From positions 496,001-560,000 of the forward strand of contig NC_007760.1 of assembly GCF_000013385.1 (NCBI RefSeq): 64,000 nt of DNA, written 5' to 3'. The DNA is from Anaeromyxobacter dehalogenans 2CP-C (GTDB lineage: Bacteria > Myxococcota > Myxococcia > Myxococcales > Anaeromyxobacteraceae). Position 1 is the first letter of the stretch. Each line of letters starts with the position of its first letter. Of this stretch, positions 15,689 through 32,018 are shown in pieces. The notes under the pieces are model-generated. The model was not told where the DNA came from and ran no database searches. It saw only the letters and a list, made by a program, of their open reading frames with translations. The translations under genes were made by a program, and so were the position numbers.

Positions 15689-16015
15689 GCGGTCCCCTCC
15701 CGGCCTCCTGTCTAAGGGCCCGGCGGGCGGATGTCACCGGGCACGGGCGCGCTCCACCTGTGGCGGAGGGCGGCCGGGCGGGGCGGACAGCGCCGCCCAT
15801 TCGCGTAGAGCCCTGCTGCGGCGCACGCTGGCTGCCTGCGCCGGGCAGACTCGTCCCTGCGCTGCTCGACGTGCCTACGGGCACGCCTGCGCTGCTCGGT
15901 CCTCGTGTGCCCGGCTCGGCGACGCCATCGTGTGCCTCGCGACGGGCCCCACGCGAACGGGAGGCGCTATGAGATCCCGCCGCCGGACCTCGCCGCGCTT
16001 GATACACATGGAGGC
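15689..16015. other. Non-coding interval with a direct repeat around a small hairpin
   Basis: A 327-base divergent interval between xthA and the phosphatase/glycohydrolase fusion. It has no convincing gene. The sequence CCTGCGCTGCTCG occurs at 15856-15868 and again at 15886-15898, on either side of a small inverted repeat GTGCC...GGCAC (15871-15883). No standard promoter could be identified with confidence. Confidence 0.4.
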
Positions 16016-17875
16016 GTGACCGAGCTCGCCCGCGCCCTGGAAGCCGCCCTCCGCGCCGCCCGCGCCGCGGCCGACCTGCTGCGGGCGGAGCTGTTCCGGG
16101 CCGGCGGGCCCCGCGGCGAGCCGGGGCACTGCCCCGCGGACGAGGAGGCGGAGGATCTCATCCGCGCCATCCTCGACGCGGTGTTCCCGGGCGACGGCTT
16201 CGTGGGCGAGGAGCGGCCCGAGCGCAACCGGCCGCCGGCCCTTCCGGGCGGGCGGTGCTGGCTCGTCGATCCGAACGACGGGACCGCCGACTTCCAGCGC
16301 GGGCACCGCGGCGCCTCGGTGTCGATCGGCCTGGTGAAGGACGGCGTGCCGGTGCTCGGCGTGGTGCTCGCCCACACCGCGCCGCACGGCGGGGAGGACC
16401 TGCTCGCCTGGGCCGAGGGGGAGGGGCCGGTGCTGAGGAATGGCGCGCCGCTGCCGCCCATCTCCCGCGCGCCGCTCCAGGCCGGCGACGTGGTGCTCGT
16501 GTCCTCGTCGGCGGCGAAGCGGGCGCGCGGCAACGCCGAGGCGCTGCAGCCCGCGCGCTTCCGGCCGCTCACCAGCATCGCCTACCGGCTCGCGATGATC
16601 GCCACCGGCGAGGCGCGCGGCGCCGTCTCGCTGCACCGGCCGCGCGCGCTCGACGTCGCGGCCGGGCACGCGCTCGTCCGCGGCGCCGGCGGCGTGCTGC
16701 TCGACGAGGCCGGGCGCGAGGTGCGCTACGGGCCGTCGGGCGAGGGGCGGGTGGCGTTCTGCTTCGGCGGCGCGCCCGCGGTGGCCGAGCGGCTGGCGAC
16801 GCGGAGCTGGGTCGAGGCGCAGGCGTACGGGCCCGGGGCGCCCGGCCTGTGCGCGCCGCTCGCCGGGCGCGCCGTCCGCGACGACGGCCTGCTCCGCCGC
16901 GGCCAGGGCGCGCTGCTCGGGCAGCTCGCCGGCGACGCGCTCGGCGGGCAGGTGGAGTTCTCCGGCCGCGCGCGCATCGCCGCCGCGCACCCGCAGGGCG
17001 TCCGCGACCTCGCCGACGGCGGCCACTGGAGCACGCTCGCCGGCCAGCCCACCGACGACTCCGAGCTGGCGCTGGCGCTCGCGCGCACCGTGATCGCGTT
17101 CGGGCGCTTCGACGCGGCGCGGGTGGCGGAGGCCTACGCCGACTGGCTCGGCTCGGAGCCGTTCGACGTCGGCCGGACGGTGGACGCGGCGCTCCGGCCG
17201 GCGCTGCGCGCCCGGGCCGCGGGCGGCGGGGCCGAGCAGGTGGCGGAGGCGGCCCGCGCCGCCGCGCCGCGCGGGAGCCTCGCGAACGGCGCGCTCATGC
17301 GCGTGTCGCCGCTCGGGATCGCCGGCCACGCCGCGCCCGCGGCCGAGGTGGCCGCCTGGGCGCGCGCCGACGCCGCGCTCACCCACCCCGCCCCGCCGTG
17401 CCAGGACGCGAGCGCCGTGTTCGCGGCCACCGTCGCGTTCGCGATCGCGAGCGGCGCGCCCGCCGCCGAGGTGGCGGACCGCGGCGAGGCGCTCGCCGGC
17501 GAGCTCGGCTGCGGCCCCGAGGTGCGCGAGGCGCTCGCGGCCGCGCGGGCCGGCCCCCCCGAGGACTTCGAGGCGAGCGCCGGGCTCGTGACGATCGCGC
17601 TCCAGAACGCGTTCTTCCAGCTCCGCCACGCGCCGGATCTCGAGGCGGGGCTGGTGGACACCGTCGGCCGCGGCGGCGACACCGACACGAACGCGGCCAT
17701 CGCCGGCGCGCTGCTCGGCGCCGCGCACGGCGTGCTCGCCGTCCCGGAGCGCTGGCGCCGGGCGGTGCTGAGCTGCTGGCCCGTGGAGGGCGCGCCCGGC
17801 GTCCGCCGCCCGCGCCCGCCGGTCTGCTGGCCGGGCGACGCGCTCATCCTGGCGGAGCGGCTGCTGGGGCTGTGA
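16016..17875 (+). CDS. Inositol-phosphatase-family / ADP-ribosylglycohydrolase fusion
   Basis: About 619 residues with two complete enzyme domains. Residues 1-260 belong to the lithium-sensitive phosphatase (IMPase/CysQ) family: metal ligands GEE (64-66), DPNDGT (85-90) and LDVAAGHA (Asp 213) are all present. Residues 290-619 are an ADP-ribosylglycohydrolase of the DraG/ARH family with GDALG (306-310), TDDSE (346-350) and the binuclear-metal motif GGDTDTNAAIAG (about 553-564), so both active sites look intact. The GTG start at 16016 is the best fit to the phosphatase N-terminus, although GGAGG sits only one base upstream; other starts in frame lie in non-coding-looking sequence. A role in removing ADP-ribose from a target and then dephosphorylating the product is inference. 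Confidence 0.88.
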   Translation: MTELARALEAALRAARAAADLLRAELFRAGGPRGEPGHCPADEEAEDLIRAILDAVFPGDGFVGEERPERNRPPALPGGRCWLVDPNDGTADFQRGHRGASVSIGLVKDGVPVLGVVLAHTAPHGGEDLLAWAEGEGPVLRNGAPLPPISRAPLQAGDVVLVSSSAAKRARGNAEALQPARFRPLTSIAYRLAMIATGEARGAVSLHRPRALDVAAGHALVRGAGGVLLDEAGREVRYGPSGEGRVAFCFGGAPAVAERLATRSWVEAQAYGPGAPGLCAPLAGRAVRDDGLLRRGQGALLGQLAGDALGGQVEFSGRARIAAAHPQGVRDLADGGHWSTLAGQPTDDSELALALARTVIAFGRFDAARVAEAYADWLGSEPFDVGRTVDAALRPALRARAAGGGAEQVAEAARAAAPRGSLANGALMRVSPLGIAGHAAPAAEVAAWARADAALTHPAPPCQDASAVFAATVAFAIASGAPAAEVADRGEALAGELGCGPEVREALAAARAGPPEDFEASAGLVTIALQNAFFQLRHAPDLEAGLVDTVGRGGDTDTNAAIAGALLGAAHGVLAVPERWRRAVLSCWPVEGAPGVRRPRPPVCWPGDALILAERLLGL

Positions 17876-23986: not shown

Positions 23987-24337
23987 CTAGCCCTTCACCT
24001 CGGGCAGGCGCGCGCCGCGCCAGGCGAGCATCCCGCCCGCGAGCTGCGCGGCCTCGAAGCCGCCGCGCTCCAGCAGGCGCACCGCGGGCACGCTGCGGTG
24101 CCCCGACAGGCAGACCGCCACCACCGGGCGGGCAGGGTCGAGCTTCAGCGTCGCCAGGCGCCCGCGCAGCTCCCCGATCGGCACGTTCACCGCCCCGCGG
24201 ATGCGTCCCTGCGAGAACTCGGCGGGGGTGCGGACGTCCACGAGCTGCGGCGCCGGGCGCCCGCGCAGCCGATCGTTCAGCTCGACGGCCGAGAGCTCGG
24301 GTACGCTGCCGAAGGGGAACCACCAGGGGAGCTTCAT
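23987..24337 (-). CDS. Single-domain rhodanese-like protein
   Basis: 116 residues of the rhodanese (sulfurtransferase) fold: LVDVRTPAEFSQGRIRGAVNVPIGEL is the standard CH2A-type beginning. The active-site loop is CLSGHRS with the catalytic cysteine present, so it could carry a persulfide; some homologues serve as sulfur carriers. ATG 24337 shares its CATG with the start of the divergent chromate transporter, so one of the two true starts must lie further in, or the two genes compete for a promoter. It is likely cytosolic, as no signal peptide is present. Confidence 0.88.
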   Translation of the reverse strand: MKLPWWFPFGSVPELSAVELNDRLRGRPAPQLVDVRTPAEFSQGRIRGAVNVPIGELRGRLATLKLDPARPVVAVCLSGHRSVPAVRLLERGGFEAAQLAGGMLAWRGARLPEVKG

Positions 24338-25730
24338 GGCGCGTGAGAGCCGCGGGCCGCCGCAGGGGTTCGGGCCGCGCGGCGGCGCGGACCTGCGGGG
24401 CGCCGGGAATCCCGCCGGCCAGGGCGGCGTTGGCCCGGGCGTGGACGCGCGCGCGACCCCCCCGCCCGGCGCGACGCCGGTGCCGCTCTCCCGGCGCCCG
24501 CGCCCGACGCTCCCCGCGCTCGCGCGCGCCTCGGCCTGGCTCGGCCTGACCGGCTTCGGCGGCGGCCTCTCGGTGCTCGGGACCATGCACGACCTGCTGG
24601 TCGAGCGCCGGCGCTGGCTCACCGAGCGCGAGTTCACCGTCACCGCCACCGTCTCGCAGATGCTGCCGGGCGGCGCGGCCGCGAACGCGCTCGCGTACAC
24701 CGGCCTGCGCTTCCACGGGCCCGCCGGCGCGATCGCGGCGTACGCCGCGTTCATCGCGCCGGGCGCGATCGTGGTCACCCTGCTCGCGGCGCTCTACGTG
24801 CGGCTCGGCGTGACGCCCACCGCGGCGCCGCTCCTCGCCGGCCTGAACGCCGCGGTCGTCGGCATCGTGGCCTCGATCACCTTGCAGATGCTCCGGGCCG
24901 GGGTCCAGCGCGCCTGGCAGATGGGCGTGGCGGCGGCGACGCTCCTGTTCTCGCTCGGCGCGGCCGCGTCGGCGGGCGAGATGGCGGCGCTCGGGATCGG
25001 CGCCGGGCTGGTGCTCGACCTCGGCGTGAAGCGGATGCGGCTCCTGCGGTTCCAGCGGCGGGCGCGCCGGCCGTCGCCGCCGGTGGCGCTGCCGGACGAG
25101 GGGACGCCCCTGCCGCCGCCGGTGCGCGAGGGCGAGGACGAGGCGCCGGCCGATCCCGCCGGGCCGCCGCGGCTGCCCGCGCTCGCGCTCCTCTCCGCGC
25201 CGGCGCTCGGCGCGCTCGGCGCCATGGCGCTCCTGTTCCTGCGCGCCGGCCTGGGCGCCTACGGCGGCGGCTTCGCCATCATCCCGCACCTCCAGGCCTC
25301 GGTGCTCGCCGAGCACTGGATCGGCCCGCGGCAGTTCGCCGACGCGGTCGCGATCGGCAAGCTCACGCCCGGCCCGGTGCTGCTGATGGCGACGTTCATC
25401 GGCTACCTGGTCCACGGGATCGCCGGCGCGGCGGTCGCCACCGCGGCGGTGTTCGCCGGCCCGCTCGCGCTCGTGCTGGCCGTGGGCGCGTGGCTGGCGC
25501 GCGTGCGGTCGCGGCGGCCGGTGCGGGCGGCGCTCCGCGGGCTCACGCCGGCGGTGGTGGGGCTCATGGCGGCGGCGGCGCTGGCGCTCGGGCGCTCGCT
25601 GGAGGGGCGCGTCGAGCTCGCCATCGCGGCCGCGTCGCTGCTCACGCTGGCGCGGTTCCGGGTGAACCCGGTGCTGGTCATGGCGCTCGGCGGCGGGATC
25701 CGGCTGGCGCTGTCACTCGCGGGGCTGTAG
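24336..25730 (+). CDS. chrA: Chromate ion transporter, two-domain CHR family
   Basis: Membrane transporter of the CHR superfamily (chromate efflux, sulfate-linked), 464 residues. Two homologous halves are visible. Each starts with a G-G-G motif helix: LGLTGFGGGLSVLG with WLTEREF in the first, GLGAYGGGFAIIPHLQ with WIGPRQFADAVAIGKLTPGP in the second. About ten hydrophobic segments are present, with a charged cytoplasmic linker near residues 230-280. ATG 24336 overlaps the divergent rhodanese start. The first 48 residues are low-complexity, and a GTG at 24480 just before the first helix is a plausible real start. Confidence 0.92.
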   Translation: MARESRGPPQGFGPRGGADLRGAGNPAGQGGVGPGVDARATPPPGATPVPLSRRPRPTLPALARASAWLGLTGFGGGLSVLGTMHDLLVERRRWLTEREFTVTATVSQMLPGGAAANALAYTGLRFHGPAGAIAAYAAFIAPGAIVVTLLAALYVRLGVTPTAAPLLAGLNAAVVGIVASITLQMLRAGVQRAWQMGVAAATLLFSLGAAASAGEMAALGIGAGLVLDLGVKRMRLLRFQRRARRPSPPVALPDEGTPLPPPVREGEDEAPADPAGPPRLPALALLSAPALGALGAMALLFLRAGLGAYGGGFAIIPHLQASVLAEHWIGPRQFADAVAIGKLTPGPVLLMATFIGYLVHGIAGAAVATAAVFAGPLALVLAVGAWLARVRSRRPVRAALRGLTPAVVGLMAAAALALGRSLEGRVELAIAAASLLTLARFRVNPVLVMALGGGIRLALSLAGL

Positions 25731-25810: not shown

Positions 25811-26323
25811 ATGTCCCCCCTGCGACCCCTCGTCCTGATCGCCACGTTCGCCAGCCTTGCCACCCTGGCCGCACCCGCCGCCGCCGGCCCGGGCGCGCCC
25901 GCCGCCCCGGCCGCCGCGGCCGCGCCGGCGCCCGGCCCGAAGGACCGCTGCGCCGTCTGCGGCATGCTGGTGGCGAAGTTCCCGCAGTGGGTCACGTCGA
26001 TCCGCTACCGCGACGGCGAGGTGGCGTTCTTCGACGGCGTGAAGGACCTGCTCGCGTACTGGCACGACCTGCCGCGGCACGCGCCCGGCCGCGCGCAGGG
26101 CGACGTCGCCGCGATCTTCGTGACCGACTACTACTCGGCCCGCCCCATCGACGGCCGGGGCGCGTTCTACGTGATCGGCGGCGACGTGCGCGGGCCCATG
26201 GGCGCCGAGCTCGTCGCGTTCGCGCGCGAGGGCGACGCGAAGGCGTTCCTGGCCGAGCACCGCGGCGAGCGGATCCTGCGCTTCGACGACGCCACGCCCG
26301 CGGTGCTGGAGGCGCTGCGGTGA
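25811..26323 (+). CDS. NosL-like copper-binding exported protein, first gene of a five-gene operon
   Basis: 170 residues. The signal peptide (MSPLRPLVLIATFASLATLAAPAAA) is followed by an Ala/Pro linker and then CAVCGM (Cys 47, Cys 50, Met 52), the diagnostic copper site of the NosL family. The remainder (WVTSIRYRDGEVAFFDGVKDLLAYW, VTDYYSARPIDGRGAFYVIGG, GAELVAFA) matches NosL throughout. Unlike NosL of nitrous-oxide reductase clusters there is no lipobox cysteine at the cleavage site. GGAG lies 8 bases before ATG 25811. The next gene starts by GTGA overlap. The protein probably delivers or receives Cu(I) outside the inner membrane. Confidence 0.88.
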   Translation: MSPLRPLVLIATFASLATLAAPAAAGPGAPAAPAAAAAPAPGPKDRCAVCGMLVAKFPQWVTSIRYRDGEVAFFDGVKDLLAYWHDLPRHAPGRAQGDVAAIFVTDYYSARPIDGRGAFYVIGGDVRGPMGAELVAFAREGDAKAFLAEHRGERILRFDDATPAVLEALR

Positions 26324-26604
26324 GCCTCCGGCGCTCCGACCGGTTCCTGGCGGCGCTCGCCGTCGCGGCCGCGCTCGGGGCGGCGGCGCTCGCCGACGCG
26401 CGCGCGCGGCGGTCCGCGGCCCGGCCGGCGGCGGAGGAGCAGGCGCGCCTCGTGGCGCGGCTCGGGCTGACCGACCCGTGCCTGTTCAACGACGCGCGCT
26501 ACACGCGCCACCTCTCCCAGGCCGATCGCTTCGCGCCGTTCCAGGACCACCCGCGCGCGCTCGAGCACTTCCCGTCGGGCTCGCTCACCGCGGGGGCGCG
26601 GTGA
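26320..26604 (+). CDS. Small membrane-anchored protein linked to the NosL/ABC operon
   Basis: 94 residues beginning at GTG 26320, four-base overlap with the NosL-like gene. One N-terminal hydrophobic segment (about residues 8-25) is followed by a charged stretch. The C-terminal half is strikingly ordered for this GC-rich genome: Cys 54, FNDARYTRH, DRFAPFQDHP and ALEHFPSGSL. Such a run of Phe, His, Tyr and Asn residues implies strong purifying selection and probable metal or protein contact outside the membrane. I recognise the pattern as recurring near NosL and ABC genes in other bacteria but cannot name a family. Position and overlaps show it belongs to the operon. Confidence 0.8.
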   Translation: MSLRRSDRFLAALAVAAALGAAALADARARRSAARPAAEEQARLVARLGLTDPCLFNDARYTRHLSQADRFAPFQDHPRALEHFPSGSLTAGAR

Positions 26605-27749
26605 CGCTGCGAGGCGCGCTGGAGCGGCAGCGCTCGCTCCTCGACTTCGCGCTCGGCGCGCTCGGCCGCCGGCGCGGGAAGACCGCGGCGCTCGTGGCCG
26701 TGCACGCGCTGCTGGTGTTCGCGCTCGCCTCGGTGCTGCTGTTCACCGGCGGCCTGCGCGAGCAGGTGCGCGCCGCGCTCCGCGGGGCGCCGGACGTGGT
26801 GGTGCAGCGCATGGCCGCGGGGCGGCACGAGCAGGTGCCGGCCGGCTGGGTGGAGACGCTCGGCACGCTGCGCGGCGTCTCCGGCGCGCGCGGCCGGCTG
26901 TGGGGCTACTACTTCGAGCCGGTGAGCGGCGCGAACCTCACCGTGATGGTGCCCGACGGCGGGTGGGCGAGCCCGGGCGGCGCGGTGGCCGGGCCGGGCG
27001 TGGCGCGGGTGCTCGGGCTGAAGCAGGGCGACCGCCTCCCGCTGCGCACCTACGACGGCGAGGCGCTCGACCTCGGCGTCGCGGCGATCGCGTCGCCTGC
27101 GGTCGAGCTGGTCGCGTCGGATCTGCTGCTCGTCTCCGAGAGCGACTACCGCGCGCTGTTCGGCGCCGAGCCGGGGCGGTTCACCGACGTGGCGGTGGCG
27201 GTCCCGAACCCGGACGAGGTGACGAGGCTGGCCGAGAAGATCGTCCGCATGTTCCCGGACGCGCGGGTGGTGACGCGCGCCGAGATGATCCGCACCTACG
27301 ACGCCGTGCTCGACTGGCGGAGCGGGCTCGCCGCCGCGGTGCTCGCCGGCGCGGTGCTGGCGTTCGCGATCCTGGCGTGGGACCGGGCCAGCGGGCTCTC
27401 CGCGGAGGAGCGGCACGAGCTGGGCATCCTGAAGGCGCTCGGCTGGGACACCCGCGACGTGCTCGCGGCGAAGGCGTGGGAGGGGGCGGCGGTGTCGGTG
27501 TCCGCGTTCGCGATCGGGGCGCTGGCCGCCTACGCGCACGTGTTCCTGGGCGGCGCGGTGCTCCTCCGCCCGATCCTGGAGGGCTGGGCGGCGCTCTACC
27601 CGGACCTGCGCCCGGCGCCGCCCGTCCAGCCGCTGGCGCTCGCGACGCTGCTCTTCCTCACGGTGATCCCCTACGTCGCGGCGACGGTGGTCCCCTGCTG
27701 GCGGGCCGCCACGGTGGACCCCGACGCGCTCATGCGGGGCGACGCGTGA
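26601..27749 (+). CDS. FtsX/MacB-type ABC transporter permease
   Basis: 382 residues. The first TM helix is near residues 30-50 (AALVAVHALLVFALASVLLF) and a periplasmic domain of about 190 residues follows. Three further TM helices lie near 235-255, 290-315 and 345-365. The cytoplasmic coupling helix motif ELGILKALGWDTRDVLAAK sits between the second and third helices, as in FtsX/LolC/MacB permeases. This class does not import solutes but performs mechanotransmission or exports lipids and peptides. GTG start 26601 overlaps the previous stop, and the ATPase gene overlaps at 27746. Confidence 0.9.
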   Translation: MTLRGALERQRSLLDFALGALGRRRGKTAALVAVHALLVFALASVLLFTGGLREQVRAALRGAPDVVVQRMAAGRHEQVPAGWVETLGTLRGVSGARGRLWGYYFEPVSGANLTVMVPDGGWASPGGAVAGPGVARVLGLKQGDRLPLRTYDGEALDLGVAAIASPAVELVASDLLLVSESDYRALFGAEPGRFTDVAVAVPNPDEVTRLAEKIVRMFPDARVVTRAEMIRTYDAVLDWRSGLAAAVLAGAVLAFAILAWDRASGLSAEERHELGILKALGWDTRDVLAAKAWEGAAVSVSAFAIGALAAYAHVFLGGAVLLRPILEGWAALYPDLRPAPPVQPLALATLLFLTVIPYVAATVVPCWRAATVDPDALMRGDA

Positions 27750-28432
27750 TCCAGCTCCGCGAGGTCACCAAGGTGTTCGACGAGGGGCGGCCCGGCGCGC
27801 TCGCCGCGGTGGACCGGGTCACGCTGGAGGTGGCCGGCGGGGCGGTGACGGTGCTGGTGGGGCCGAGCGGCTCCGGGAAGACCACGCTGCTCACGCTGCT
27901 CGGCGCCATGGCCCGGCCCACCGAGGGACGCATCTTCCTCGACGGCCGCGAGCTCACCAGCCTGCCCGAGCGCTTCCTGGCGGCGCTGCGGCGGCGGACC
28001 TTCGGCTTCGTGTTCCAGCAGTTCCACCTCGTGCCCGCGCTCTCCGCGCTCGAGAACGTGATGCTGCCCGCCTTGCCCTCCGGCGAGCCGCGCCGCGACG
28101 TCGAGGCGCGGGCGCGGGCGGCGCTGGCGCGGCTCGGGGTGGAGGGCCGCGCCGGGGTCCGCGCCGGCCGGCTCTCCGGCGGCGAGGCGCAGCGGGTGGC
28201 GCTGGCGCGCGCGCTGGTGGACGATCCGAAGGTGATCGTCGCCGACGAGCCCACCGCGCACCTCGACAGCGCCCGGGCCCGCGCGCTCATGGAGATCGTG
28301 CGGGGGCTGAAGGCCGAGGGCAAGACCGTGGTGGTCGCCAGCCACGATCCCCTCGTGTACGCCGCGGACTGCGTGGACCGCGTGGTGCGCATGCGCGACG
28401 GCCGGATCGTGGCGCCCGGGGCCGAGCCGTGA
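27746..28432 (+). CDS. LolD/MacB-type ABC transporter ATP-binding protein
   Basis: 228 residues with complete ABC motifs: Walker A GPSGSGKTT, Q-loop FQQFHLVPALSALENVMLP, signature LSGGEAQRVALARAL, Walker B VIVADEPTAHLD and H-loop ASHDP. The sequence after the Q-loop and the THLD-type D-loop place it in the LolD/MacB/FtsE group, which pairs with FtsX-type permeases such as the gene directly upstream. GTG start by 4-base overlap; the next gene starts by the same overlap at 28429. Confidence 0.94.
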   Translation: MIQLREVTKVFDEGRPGALAAVDRVTLEVAGGAVTVLVGPSGSGKTTLLTLLGAMARPTEGRIFLDGRELTSLPERFLAALRRRTFGFVFQQFHLVPALSALENVMLPALPSGEPRRDVEARARAALARLGVEGRAGVRAGRLSGGEAQRVALARALVDDPKVIVADEPTAHLDSARARALMEIVRGLKAEGKTVVVASHDPLVYAADCVDRVVRMRDGRIVAPGAEP

Positions 28433-29421
28433 TCCTGAGCCCGCCGGTGCTGGCGCTGCAGGCGGGGGCGGCGGCGTCGAGCGGCTTCCTCCTCTATGCG
28501 CTCCGCTGGGCGGCGCCGGTGGTGCGCCGCTGGGATCCCTCGAGCGGGAGCCGCGCGCAGCTCCGCCTGGAGCGGCGGGCGCTGCTGGTGGGCGTGCTGG
28601 TGCGGACCGCGCTCGCGGTGCAGCTCGCGTCGCTGGCGCTGTTCGTCCACGCGTCCGACGCGCTCGCGCCCATGTTCACCGGCGCCATGTGCGCGGCGGG
28701 CACGCTCTCGGCGAGCCCGTACGGCTGGCCGGCGCTCGCGGTCCAGCTCGCGGCGACCGTGCTCGCCGGGGCCTGGCTCGCGCTCGACCGCGCCGACGGG
28801 CTCGCGCCCGACCAGCCGCTGGTGCGCGTGAAGCACGCGCTGCTCCCGGCGGTGGCCATCCCGGTCGTGGCCGGCGCGGCGCTGCAGGCCGCCCACTTCC
28901 TCGCGCTCCGGCCCGAGATCATCACCTCCTGCTGCGGGAGCCTGTTCGGGCGCGAGGGGCGCGGCGGGTGGGCGGGGCTGGCCTGGCTGCCCCCGCGCGC
29001 GGCCGGCGCGCTCCTGTACGCGGTCCCGGGCGCGGCCGCGGTGGCCGCGCTCGTCCTGCGCCGGACCGGGCGCGGCGCGTGGGCGGTGGCCGGCCTGTCG
29101 GCCCTGGCCGGGCCCGCGGCCGCCGCCGGGGTGATCGCCTGGGTGTCACCCTACGTGTACGAGGCGCCCGGGCACCGCTGCCCGTTCTGCCTGCTGCAGC
29201 CGGAGCAGGGCTGGGTGGGCTATCCGCTCCACGCGGCCCTCCTGGCCGGCTGCGTGGCCGGCGTGGCCGTGGGCGTGCTCCAGCCGTTCCGCCGCGTCCC
29301 GTCGCTGGCCGGCCCGCTCCCCGCGCTCCAGCGCCGCCTCGCGGGCGCCGCCGCGCTGGCCTGGATCGCGCTGCTCGCCGGCGCCGCCGCGCTGGTGGCC
29401 GCCTCCGGCCTCCGCGCCTGA
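28429..29421 (+). CDS. Eight-TM membrane protein with conserved-looking cysteines, last gene of the operon
   Basis: 330 residues with eight predicted TM helices. Cysteines sit at strategic sites: Cys 88 in MFTGAMCAAG after TM2, the pair Cys 168-169 in ITSCCGS after TM4, and Cys 251 and 254 in HRCPFCLLQ after TM6, with a following GYPLH. The CxxC-like and CC pairs suggest thiol chemistry or metal passage in the membrane, as in DsbB/VKOR- or CcdA-type proteins, but overall sequence fits none of these families that I know. ATG 28429 overlaps the ATPase stop. The 3' end is overlapped by a convergent frame for 276 bases. Confidence 0.82.
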   Translation: MILSPPVLALQAGAAASSGFLLYALRWAAPVVRRWDPSSGSRAQLRLERRALLVGVLVRTALAVQLASLALFVHASDALAPMFTGAMCAAGTLSASPYGWPALAVQLAATVLAGAWLALDRADGLAPDQPLVRVKHALLPAVAIPVVAGAALQAAHFLALRPEIITSCCGSLFGREGRGGWAGLAWLPPRAAGALLYAVPGAAAVAALVLRRTGRGAWAVAGLSALAGPAAAAGVIAWVSPYVYEAPGHRCPFCLLQPEQGWVGYPLHAALLAGCVAGVAVGVLQPFRRVPSLAGPLPALQRRLAGAAALAWIALLAGAAALVAASGLRA

Positions 29422-30864: not shown

Positions 30865-30977
30865 GGCGCCATCCTAGATAACGGACGAAGCTCCCGTCAA
30901 GCGGATAGCGGATGAACGTCCGGTATGGTGGACGCGGCGGCGGCGGCCCGGGCGCGTGGCGCTATACTCCCGCCCCC

Positions 30978-32018
30978 ATGCACCTCGAGGATCTCGGACC
31001 CTGGAAGCACGGACACGCGTTCGGCACGGCGGTGGAGGCGAGCGGCGAGCGGCGCACCCGCTGGGTGGTGGCGCTCACGCTCGCCATGATGGTCGGCGAG
31101 ATCGCCGCCGGCATGATGTTCGGCTCGATGGCGCTGCTCGCCGACGGCTGGCACATGGGGACGCACGCGGCGGCGCTCGGCGTGGCGGCGTTCGCCTACG
31201 CCTACGCGCGGCGGCACGCCGCCGACCCGCGCTACAGCTTCGGCACCGGCAAGGTCGGCGCGCTCGGCGGGTTCGCGAGCGCGGTCGGCCTGGCGGTGGT
31301 GGCGCTGCTCGTGCTCGGCGAGAGCGCCGTCCGGCTCGCCTCGCCGGTCGCGATCCGCTTCGACCAGGCGATCGGCGTCGCGGTGCTGGGCCTGCTCGTG
31401 AACCTGTTCAGCGCGTTCCTGCTGCGCGACGAGGACCACGGCCACGCGCACGGCCACGGCGATCACGATCACGACCACGACCACGACGACCACGACCACG
31501 GCCACCACGGCCATCACGCGCACCACGACGGCGAGCACGCTCACGCGCACCCCGACCACGGCCACGCCGAGCACCGGGACCACAACCTGCGCGCCGCCTA
31601 CCTGCACGTGCTCGCCGACGCGCTCACCTCGGTGCTCGCCATCGTGGCGCTGCTCGCGGGGCGGGTGCTCGGCTGGACCTGGATGGACCCGGTGATGGGG
31701 ATCGTCGGCGCGCTGGTGATCGCGCGCTGGTCGGTGGGCCTGCTCCGCGACACCGGCGCGGTGCTGCTCGACGCGGAGGTGGGGGAGGGACGGCGCACCG
31801 CCATCCGCGCCGCGCTGGAGCAGGGCGAGGATCGGGTGGCGGACCTGCACCTGTGGCGCGTGGGGCCGCGCCACCTCGCCGCGATCGTCTCGGTGGTCTC
31901 GACCGCGCCGCGCGCGCCCGCCGAGTACAAGGAGCGGCTGCGCGCGTTCCCGGACGTGGTGCACCTGACGGTCGAGGTCCACGCCTGCGAGCTGCCCGGC
32001 GCGCGGGCCGCGCGCTGA
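30978..32018 (+). CDS. Cation diffusion facilitator with histidine-rich loop (DmeF-like)
   Basis: Inner-membrane divalent-metal/proton antiporter, 346 residues. Six TM helices are visible. The metal-site motif LLADGWHMGTHA in TM2 and HVLADALTSVLA in TM5 give the HxxxD/HxxxD sites. Between TM4 and TM5 lies a loop of about 50 residues (about 155-205) made largely of His and Asp (HGHAHGHGDHDHDHDHDD), typical of Co/Ni/Zn-exporting DmeF-type members. The C-terminal cytoplasmic domain is present. ATG 30978 is only about ten bases after a TATACT box (30963-30968), so a leaderless message is possible; no -35 was found. Confidence 0.93.
   Translation: MHLEDLGPWKHGHAFGTAVEASGERRTRWVVALTLAMMVGEIAAGMMFGSMALLADGWHMGTHAAALGVAAFAYAYARRHAADPRYSFGTGKVGALGGFASAVGLAVVALLVLGESAVRLASPVAIRFDQAIGVAVLGLLVNLFSAFLLRDEDHGHAHGHGDHDHDHDHDDHDHGHHGHHAHHDGEHAHAHPDHGHAEHRDHNLRAAYLHVLADALTSVLAIVALLAGRVLGWTWMDPVMGIVGALVIARWSVGLLRDTGAVLLDAEVGEGRRTAIRAALEQGEDRVADLHLWRVGPRHLAAIVSVVSTAPRAPAEYKERLRAFPDVVHLTVEVHACELPGARAAR

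Follow-up and report, generated by a model that had tools for sequence, protein, structure and literature searches.

Within a stretch of 64,000 nucleotides (the window) from Anaeromyxobacter dehalogenans 2CP-C, taken from positions 496,001 to 560,000 of its single contig of 5,013,479 bases (NC_007760.1), five overlapping genes encode, in order, a NosL protein, a short membrane-anchored protein, an FtsX-type permease, a LolD/MacB-type ATP-binding cassette (ABC) ATPase and a protein with eight transmembrane (TM) segments. These five genes constitute one system, as they stand in the same order in ten genomes and the permease and the eight-TM protein share an identical presence pattern. There is, in our estimate, an even chance that they specify a NosL-linked machine of the cell envelope which handles Cu(I) in the general form set out below; copper itself is quite probably the cargo, being the best-supported option given the Cys and Met ligands of NosL, the Cys/His set of gene 5 and a copper-linked gene pair that adjoins the operon in one relative.

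Recurrence of the operon was surveyed in a sample of 195 Myxococcota genomes with profiles for genes 2, 3 and 5. Gene 5 was matched in ten of the 195, and the FtsX subfamily profile of gene 3 returned, at E 1e-30, the identical ten. The profile of gene 2 matched in eight of those ten, always inside the operon, so that its conserved form was seen nowhere else in the sample; in genomes G025 and G114 a short open reading frame with one hydrophobic segment and weak similarity to gene 2 stands at its position. A NosL-type gene comes first in all ten operons and the order of the five genes is kept; in G032 a single contig was found to carry NosL, gene 2, gene 3 and gene 5 in order. Since operon loci went into the profiles for gene 5 and the permease, most of these loci match by construction, and what the surveys tell us is that the parts are absent elsewhere. 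Nor are the ten genomes ten independent cases: they come from three families, with eight of them in one family, in which the operon has a patchy distribution (8 of 24 genomes). Recurrence of the intact unit across ten genomes and three families is nonetheless more than chance, and the five-gene NosL/ABC operon described from the window alone in an earlier note is real. The co-occurrence of the five families which that note had looked to as support is strict across the operon-bearing Myxococcota; within this phylum genes 2 and 5 do not lie mostly outside NosL/ABC loci, and gene 5 falls in no characterised family. Plasmid searches with genes 2, 3 and 5 yielded no relatives, and searches of viral contigs found no relatives either. 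Two slightly differing partial copies of gene 5 lie at contig ends in G050 (L018, L019), probably reflecting a strain mixture in a draft assembly. All four junctions in the window are 4-base overlaps, as had been noted, although every one of them is GTGA and the ATGA form given alongside it occurs at none; in the six relatives with full coordinates, the junctions are mostly of -4, with a few from -1 to +29.

Gene 1 scores 104.9 bits against PF05573 (gathering score 24) and matches the Pseudomonas stutzeri-type NosL chain 7osf_H, from the NosDFYL structures, at E 1.6e-13. In clade II NosL proteins a CXXCXM motif and one further absolutely conserved Met are the likely Cu(I) ligands (Bennett and colleagues, PMC6530538). 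The motif is formed here by Cys47, Cys50 and Met52, with Met130 as the second Met; all are invariant in eight sequences and, after the start Met, they are the sole Cys and Met residues of the window protein. We assign gene 1 to the NosL family as a member that retains the proposed Cu(I) ligands. Its N-terminus has the form of a Sec-type signal region with no lipobox Cys, and indeed with no Cys before residue 47, unlike the NosL of G025 (L016), which carries the lipobox LAAC.

Gene 5 matched no Pfam or NCBIfam family, and searches of the PDB by sequence and by fold gave nothing significant. Its AlphaFold2 model (predicted local distance difference test score, pLDDT, 87.4; predicted template modelling score, pTM, 0.85) consists of eight long helices. 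Cys88, Cys168, Cys169, His249 and Cys251 are invariant in all ten sequences and Cys254 in nine, with Phe at that position in G025; the earlier note had placed Cys 168, 169, 251 and 254 correctly, and these prove to be conserved, while the invariant Cys88 and His249 had escaped it. Cys88 lies in loop 2/3, the Cys168-Cys169 pair in loop 4/5, and His249, Cys251 and Cys254 in loop 6/7, all three loops being on one shared side of the model with each site beside a short helix. Loops 1/2, 3/4, 5/6 and 7/8 average 1.6 to 3.1 Arg/Lys, against 0.5 in loop 2/3 and 0.9 in loop 6/7; the long loop 4/5 averages 2.6 Arg/Lys against 2.7 Asp/Glu. By the positive-inside rule, with the Arg/Lys-rich loops on the other side, the cysteines probably face the periplasm.

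The ABC pair is indeed of the FtsX/LolD (type VII) class, as first described, and it stands beside a member of a copper-chaperone family. PF02687, the FtsX C-terminal domain, was found in nine of nine members of gene 3 tested, with weak profile hits to YtrF and LolF. The layout comprises a TM segment near residues 30-48, a predicted periplasmic domain of around 190 residues and C-terminal TM segments; hydropathy peaks lie at 30-48, about 241-259, 304-322 and 346-364, with another at around 160-178 within the expected periplasmic domain. Gene 4 scores 198.8 bits against the LolD model TIGR02211, under its cut-off of 307.75. For the LolCE equivalog the score is 18.7 bits, likewise under the cut-off of 362.45. 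The PDB matches of gene 4 are LolD (2pcj, 2.7e-47) and MacB (5lj9, 1.3e-45), and the Walker A, signature, Walker B and H-loop motifs are all intact. From these FtsX and LolD/MacB-type features, and from the lack of a Cys/His/Met cluster, genes 3 and 4 are assigned not to a metal-binding unit but to a motor, as parts of a type VII (MacB superfamily, FtsX/LolD) ABC system. The periplasmic domains of the FtsX dimer in such systems are moved when the LolD-like dimer binds and hydrolyses ATP, as established for MacB, LolCDE and FtsEX; we know of no type VII ABC system assigned to copper delivery.

Gene 2, which likewise matched no Pfam or NCBIfam family, has one N-terminal TM segment (about residues 9-27) followed by a short, predicted periplasmic tail with the aligned block LTD..ARYxRHxSQADRFAxFQDHPxxLxHFPSG. 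Its histidines are at 64, 77 and 83, and not at 63, 78 and 83 as numbered at first. Conservation of all three had been named as a possible sign of one system: His64 is invariant in eight aligned sequences, whereas His77 and His83 are conserved within one family only and not in the two most distant operons, so these two do not represent a general requirement. The lack of a confident structure for the tail by itself is what a docking peptide would show, although it fits many other things too.

The surroundings of some operons may point to copper. All other NosL genes detected in the family belong to nosZ clusters or are of a second type, NosL2, with the motif CxHCGMD, which occurs in six of the eight operon genomes of the family and in none of its 16 others (Fisher p 2e-4, uncorrected for kinship). 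In G018, G035 and G050 the operon has NosL2 immediately upstream, and in G047 NosL2 is close by; the copy in G060 (L076) has a C-terminal Met/His-rich repeat tail. In G047, NosL2 is preceded, divergently from the operon, by a protein that contains an SCCGGGGGG segment and by one with an AhpC/TSA-type thioredoxin fold, and a lipoprotein with Met/His-containing segments lies 25 bases upstream of the operon NosL. Octaheme cytochromes of the tetrathionate reductase type lie near the operon in G018 and beside NosL2 in G060. The octaheme sulfite reductase MccA, a copper enzyme for which a homologue of NosL works in Wolinella, was considered as a possible target. In G035 (L012, G035:C171), an MbnP/MbnH pair (TIGR04052, 249.6 bits; TIGR04039, 430 bits) adjoins NosL2 and the operon, transcribed divergently from NosL2; in G050 the pair is on a separate contig from the operon and its upstream gene is unrelated. 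Gene context has connected MbnP and MbnH with copper homeostasis (PMC3621798, PMC9426467), and the G035 neighbourhood, a single case, is consistent with copper. Several candidate targets or partners were set aside: the octaheme tetrathionate-reductase-type cytochromes because genomes of the family have them whether or not the operon is there, ccoN because ccoN-like genes are nearly universal there, copper nitrite reductase because its cut-off was never reached, and MbnP, as a co-varying partner, because it is widespread without the operon.

The features are located in the table below. Upstream of the operon in the window, a chromate transporter gene ends 80 bases before it; 1.5 kb downstream there is a gene for a protein like the cation diffusion facilitators, one loop of which is very rich in His.

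Table. Locations of the operon genes, of NosL2 copies and of other features; positions without a prefix are those of the window
Feature	Location	Strand	Product length	Basis
Gene 1, NosL	25811..26323	+	170 aa	PF05573 match
Gene 2, membrane-anchored protein	26320..26604	+	94 aa	alignments
Gene 3, FtsX-type permease	26601..27749	+	382 aa	PF02687
Gene 4, LolD/MacB-type ABC ATPase	27746..28432	+	228 aa	TIGR02211, PDB matches, motifs
Gene 5, eight-TM protein	28429..29421	+	330 aa	AlphaFold2 model, conservation
NosL2	L013:12470-13378			
NosL2	L012:14779-15117			
NosL2	L014 about 15731-16063			
NosL2	L076:3878-4504			
NosL2	L077:2371-2922			
MbnP/MbnH pair, G035	L012:15490-17409			
Octaheme cytochrome, G018	L013:3356-4774			
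Octaheme cytochrome, G060	L076:1332-3608			
SCCGGGGGG-segment and AhpC/TSA-type proteins, G047	L014:12412-15641			
Clade II nos cluster, window genome	C1:2705754-2710820 (L022)			
Chromate transporter	24201-25730			
Cation diffusion facilitator-like protein	30912-32018			

A mechanism can be proposed only tentatively, and we think it rather less likely than the general form of the machine: a type VII motor would have been recruited to move Cu(I) between the gene 5 protein and NosL, gene 2 being a docking arm, in the service of cuproenzymes other than nitrous oxide reductase. The five products would form a complex in which Cu(I) is chaperoned by NosL in the periplasm, the motor formed by genes 3 and 4 turns cytoplasmic ATP hydrolysis into movement of periplasmic domains, and gene 5 holds Cu(I) at its cysteine cluster on the periplasmic face. 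The conserved tail of gene 2 would dock NosL, or another partner, onto this complex, and the ABC motor would drive the passing of Cu(I) from one of gene 5 and NosL to the other. NosL, in most relatives with a second NosL, would then pass copper to one or more periplasmic cuproproteins beyond or besides nitrous oxide reductase.

Several points weigh against such a copper machine. No target enzyme co-varies with the operon among nosZ, ccoN, copper nitrite reductase, the octaheme cytochromes and MbnP, and the broad occurrence of MbnP in Myxococcota that lack the operon leaves the G035 linkage as one case. The periplasmic domain of gene 3 has no conserved Cys, His or Met cluster, and gene 5 has no recognised relative of established function. 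In the model of gene 2 the tail falls below a pLDDT of 50, which makes the model informative for the N-terminal helix only, and in the two most distant operons little of the tail is conserved. The copper link of the operon genes rests on sequence, on context and on what has been published about relatives, and the NosL proteins could bind another metal.

Among alternative explanations, assembly of the CuZ site of nitrous oxide reductase, with the operon as an accessory to or replacement for NosDFY working in parallel, is brought to mind by the membership of gene 1 in the NosL family, by the nosZ of the window genome and by the nos cluster of Sulfurospirillum cavolei, where apparently the same gene order is found between nosL and nosY (PMC4794192). 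The earlier statement that neither nosZ nor NosDFY was present is correct for the neighbourhood, and the operon unit itself has no NosD and no NosFY-type ABC, but the genome has a complete clade II nos cluster elsewhere, at 2.70-2.71 Mb. This cluster comprises nosZ, NosD (TIGR04247, 392.5 bits), an ABC ATPase, an ABC permease and its own NosL, so that the nosZ of this genome is already furnished with NosD, NosF, NosY and NosL. Across the 24 genomes of the family, operon and nosZ occur together in three, the operon alone in five, nosZ alone in six and neither in ten (odds ratio 1.0, p = 1), and G025, which bears the operon, is likewise without a full nosZ. As the two are independent, maturation of NosZ is not the dedicated task of the operon in this family, such a role was rejected as a general explanation, and involvement in CuZ assembly is distinctly unlikely. 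Export or detoxification, in which the ABC unit and gene 5 rid the membrane or periplasm of excess Cu(I) and NosL accepts or senses it, is also unlikely, if the least so of these alternatives. Removal of substrates from the outer leaflet is common among type VII ABC systems (for example YbbAP, PMC12646458), and the window also has the chromate transporter and the His-rich facilitator-like protein. Set against this, no gene for an outer-membrane factor, adaptor, copper regulator or copper P-type ATPase was recognised beside the operon, NosL of Paracoccus matters for nitrous oxide reductase when copper is limited (PMC6530538), and MbnP/MbnH beside one operon points to acquisition.

Handling of nickel, cobalt or iron by the same architecture is less probable than either. 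The iron uptake locus P19/cj1658-cj1663 of Campylobacter does combine permeases of the FtsX type and an ATPase of the LolD type with a protein that binds metal in the periplasm, although it differs from the operon in having iron and P19 instead of NosL, an Ftr1 permease and two FtsX proteins. Further downstream of the operon in G035 there is an energy-coupling factor (ECF)-type nickel/cobalt-like transporter with NikL- and DUF4198-type subunits, but this neighbour occurs in one genome only, and the ligands of NosL are those proposed for Cu(I). Delivery of heme, thiols or cytochrome c, with the cysteines of gene 5 as a redox relay, was half of the role first suggested, as copper or heme-thiol delivery; the copper half finds support in the NosL ligands and the conserved cysteines, whereas nothing was found for the other. 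Gene 5 does have CC and CxxC pairs, and CcmF (6zmq) is among its weak structural matches (VIA Z 10.8, root mean square deviation 5.0, 206 residues aligned), but with CcmF the Foldseek E of 0.30 falls short of significance, such a Z can arise by chance with a helical bundle, there is no conserved heme-binding motif, and the second Cys of the CxxC is replaced by Phe in G025, leaving this explanation highly improbable. Equally improbable is a LolCDE-like unit for lipid or lipoprotein transport to which NosL is incidental: gene 4 is closest to LolD and MacB and gene 3 weakly matches LolF, yet the scores fall far under the LolD and LolCE equivalog cut-offs, and no genome has the operon without NosL and the Cys-rich gene 5 in it.

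The pairing of NosL with an ABC motor for copper delivery is already known; the operon departs from this in its motor class, in having no NosD and in its two unnamed families. In NosDFYL a NosL Cu(I) chaperone is likewise tied genetically to an ABC ATPase and permease, with copper relayed to a periplasmic partner (PMC13068155, PMC6530538; structures 7osf-7osj), whereas the operon has an FtsX/LolD pair instead of NosFY, no NosD beta-helix, two extra families and no linkage to nosZ, and the window NosL is without the lipobox Cys. With the type VII systems FtsEX-EnvC, LolCDE, MacAB and YbbAP-TesA, it shares an FtsX-like permease, a LolD/MacB-like ATPase and dedicated periplasmic or membrane partners, although in its case the partners comprise a copper chaperone, an anchored short peptide and a Cys-rich protein with eight TM segments. 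NosL accompanied by NosD and NosFY-type ABC genes with no nosZ nearby has been described from Parageobacillus, for which another copper recipient was proposed (PMC13068155), and haloarchaeal plasmids (L090, L094) carry NosL, NosD and NosFY-like ABC genes with no nosZ in a 10-kb stretch; some such plasmids have paired NosL genes, again with no nosZ in 10 kb. The closest parallel in gene order, by which alone it was compared, is the insertion between nosL and nosY in the S. cavolei nos cluster, which reads NosL, hypothetical, ABC permease, ABC ATPase, hypothetical, hypothetical, NosY (PMC4794192); it differs in lying inside a nos cluster and in having one additional hypothetical gene, and is itself uncharacterised. 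The view that no such system had been described was thus overstated, since this order had been published, although the set remains uncharacterised. Should the hypothetical genes of S. cavolei be homologous, the module would also work in nitrous oxide respirers, and its target may vary with the host.

The supply of periplasmic copper to enzymes in bacteria is only partly understood. To our knowledge, NosDFYL is the ABC-driven copper assembly machine known in structural detail, and it serves nitrous oxide reductase. If the proposal is true, a second, independent architecture with another class of ABC motor would point to ATP-driven copper handover as a general strategy, would give type VII ABC systems a role in copper handling and would assign two families that are absent from Pfam and NCBIfam. 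As A. dehalogenans 2CP-C is in culture, the idea may be directly testable.

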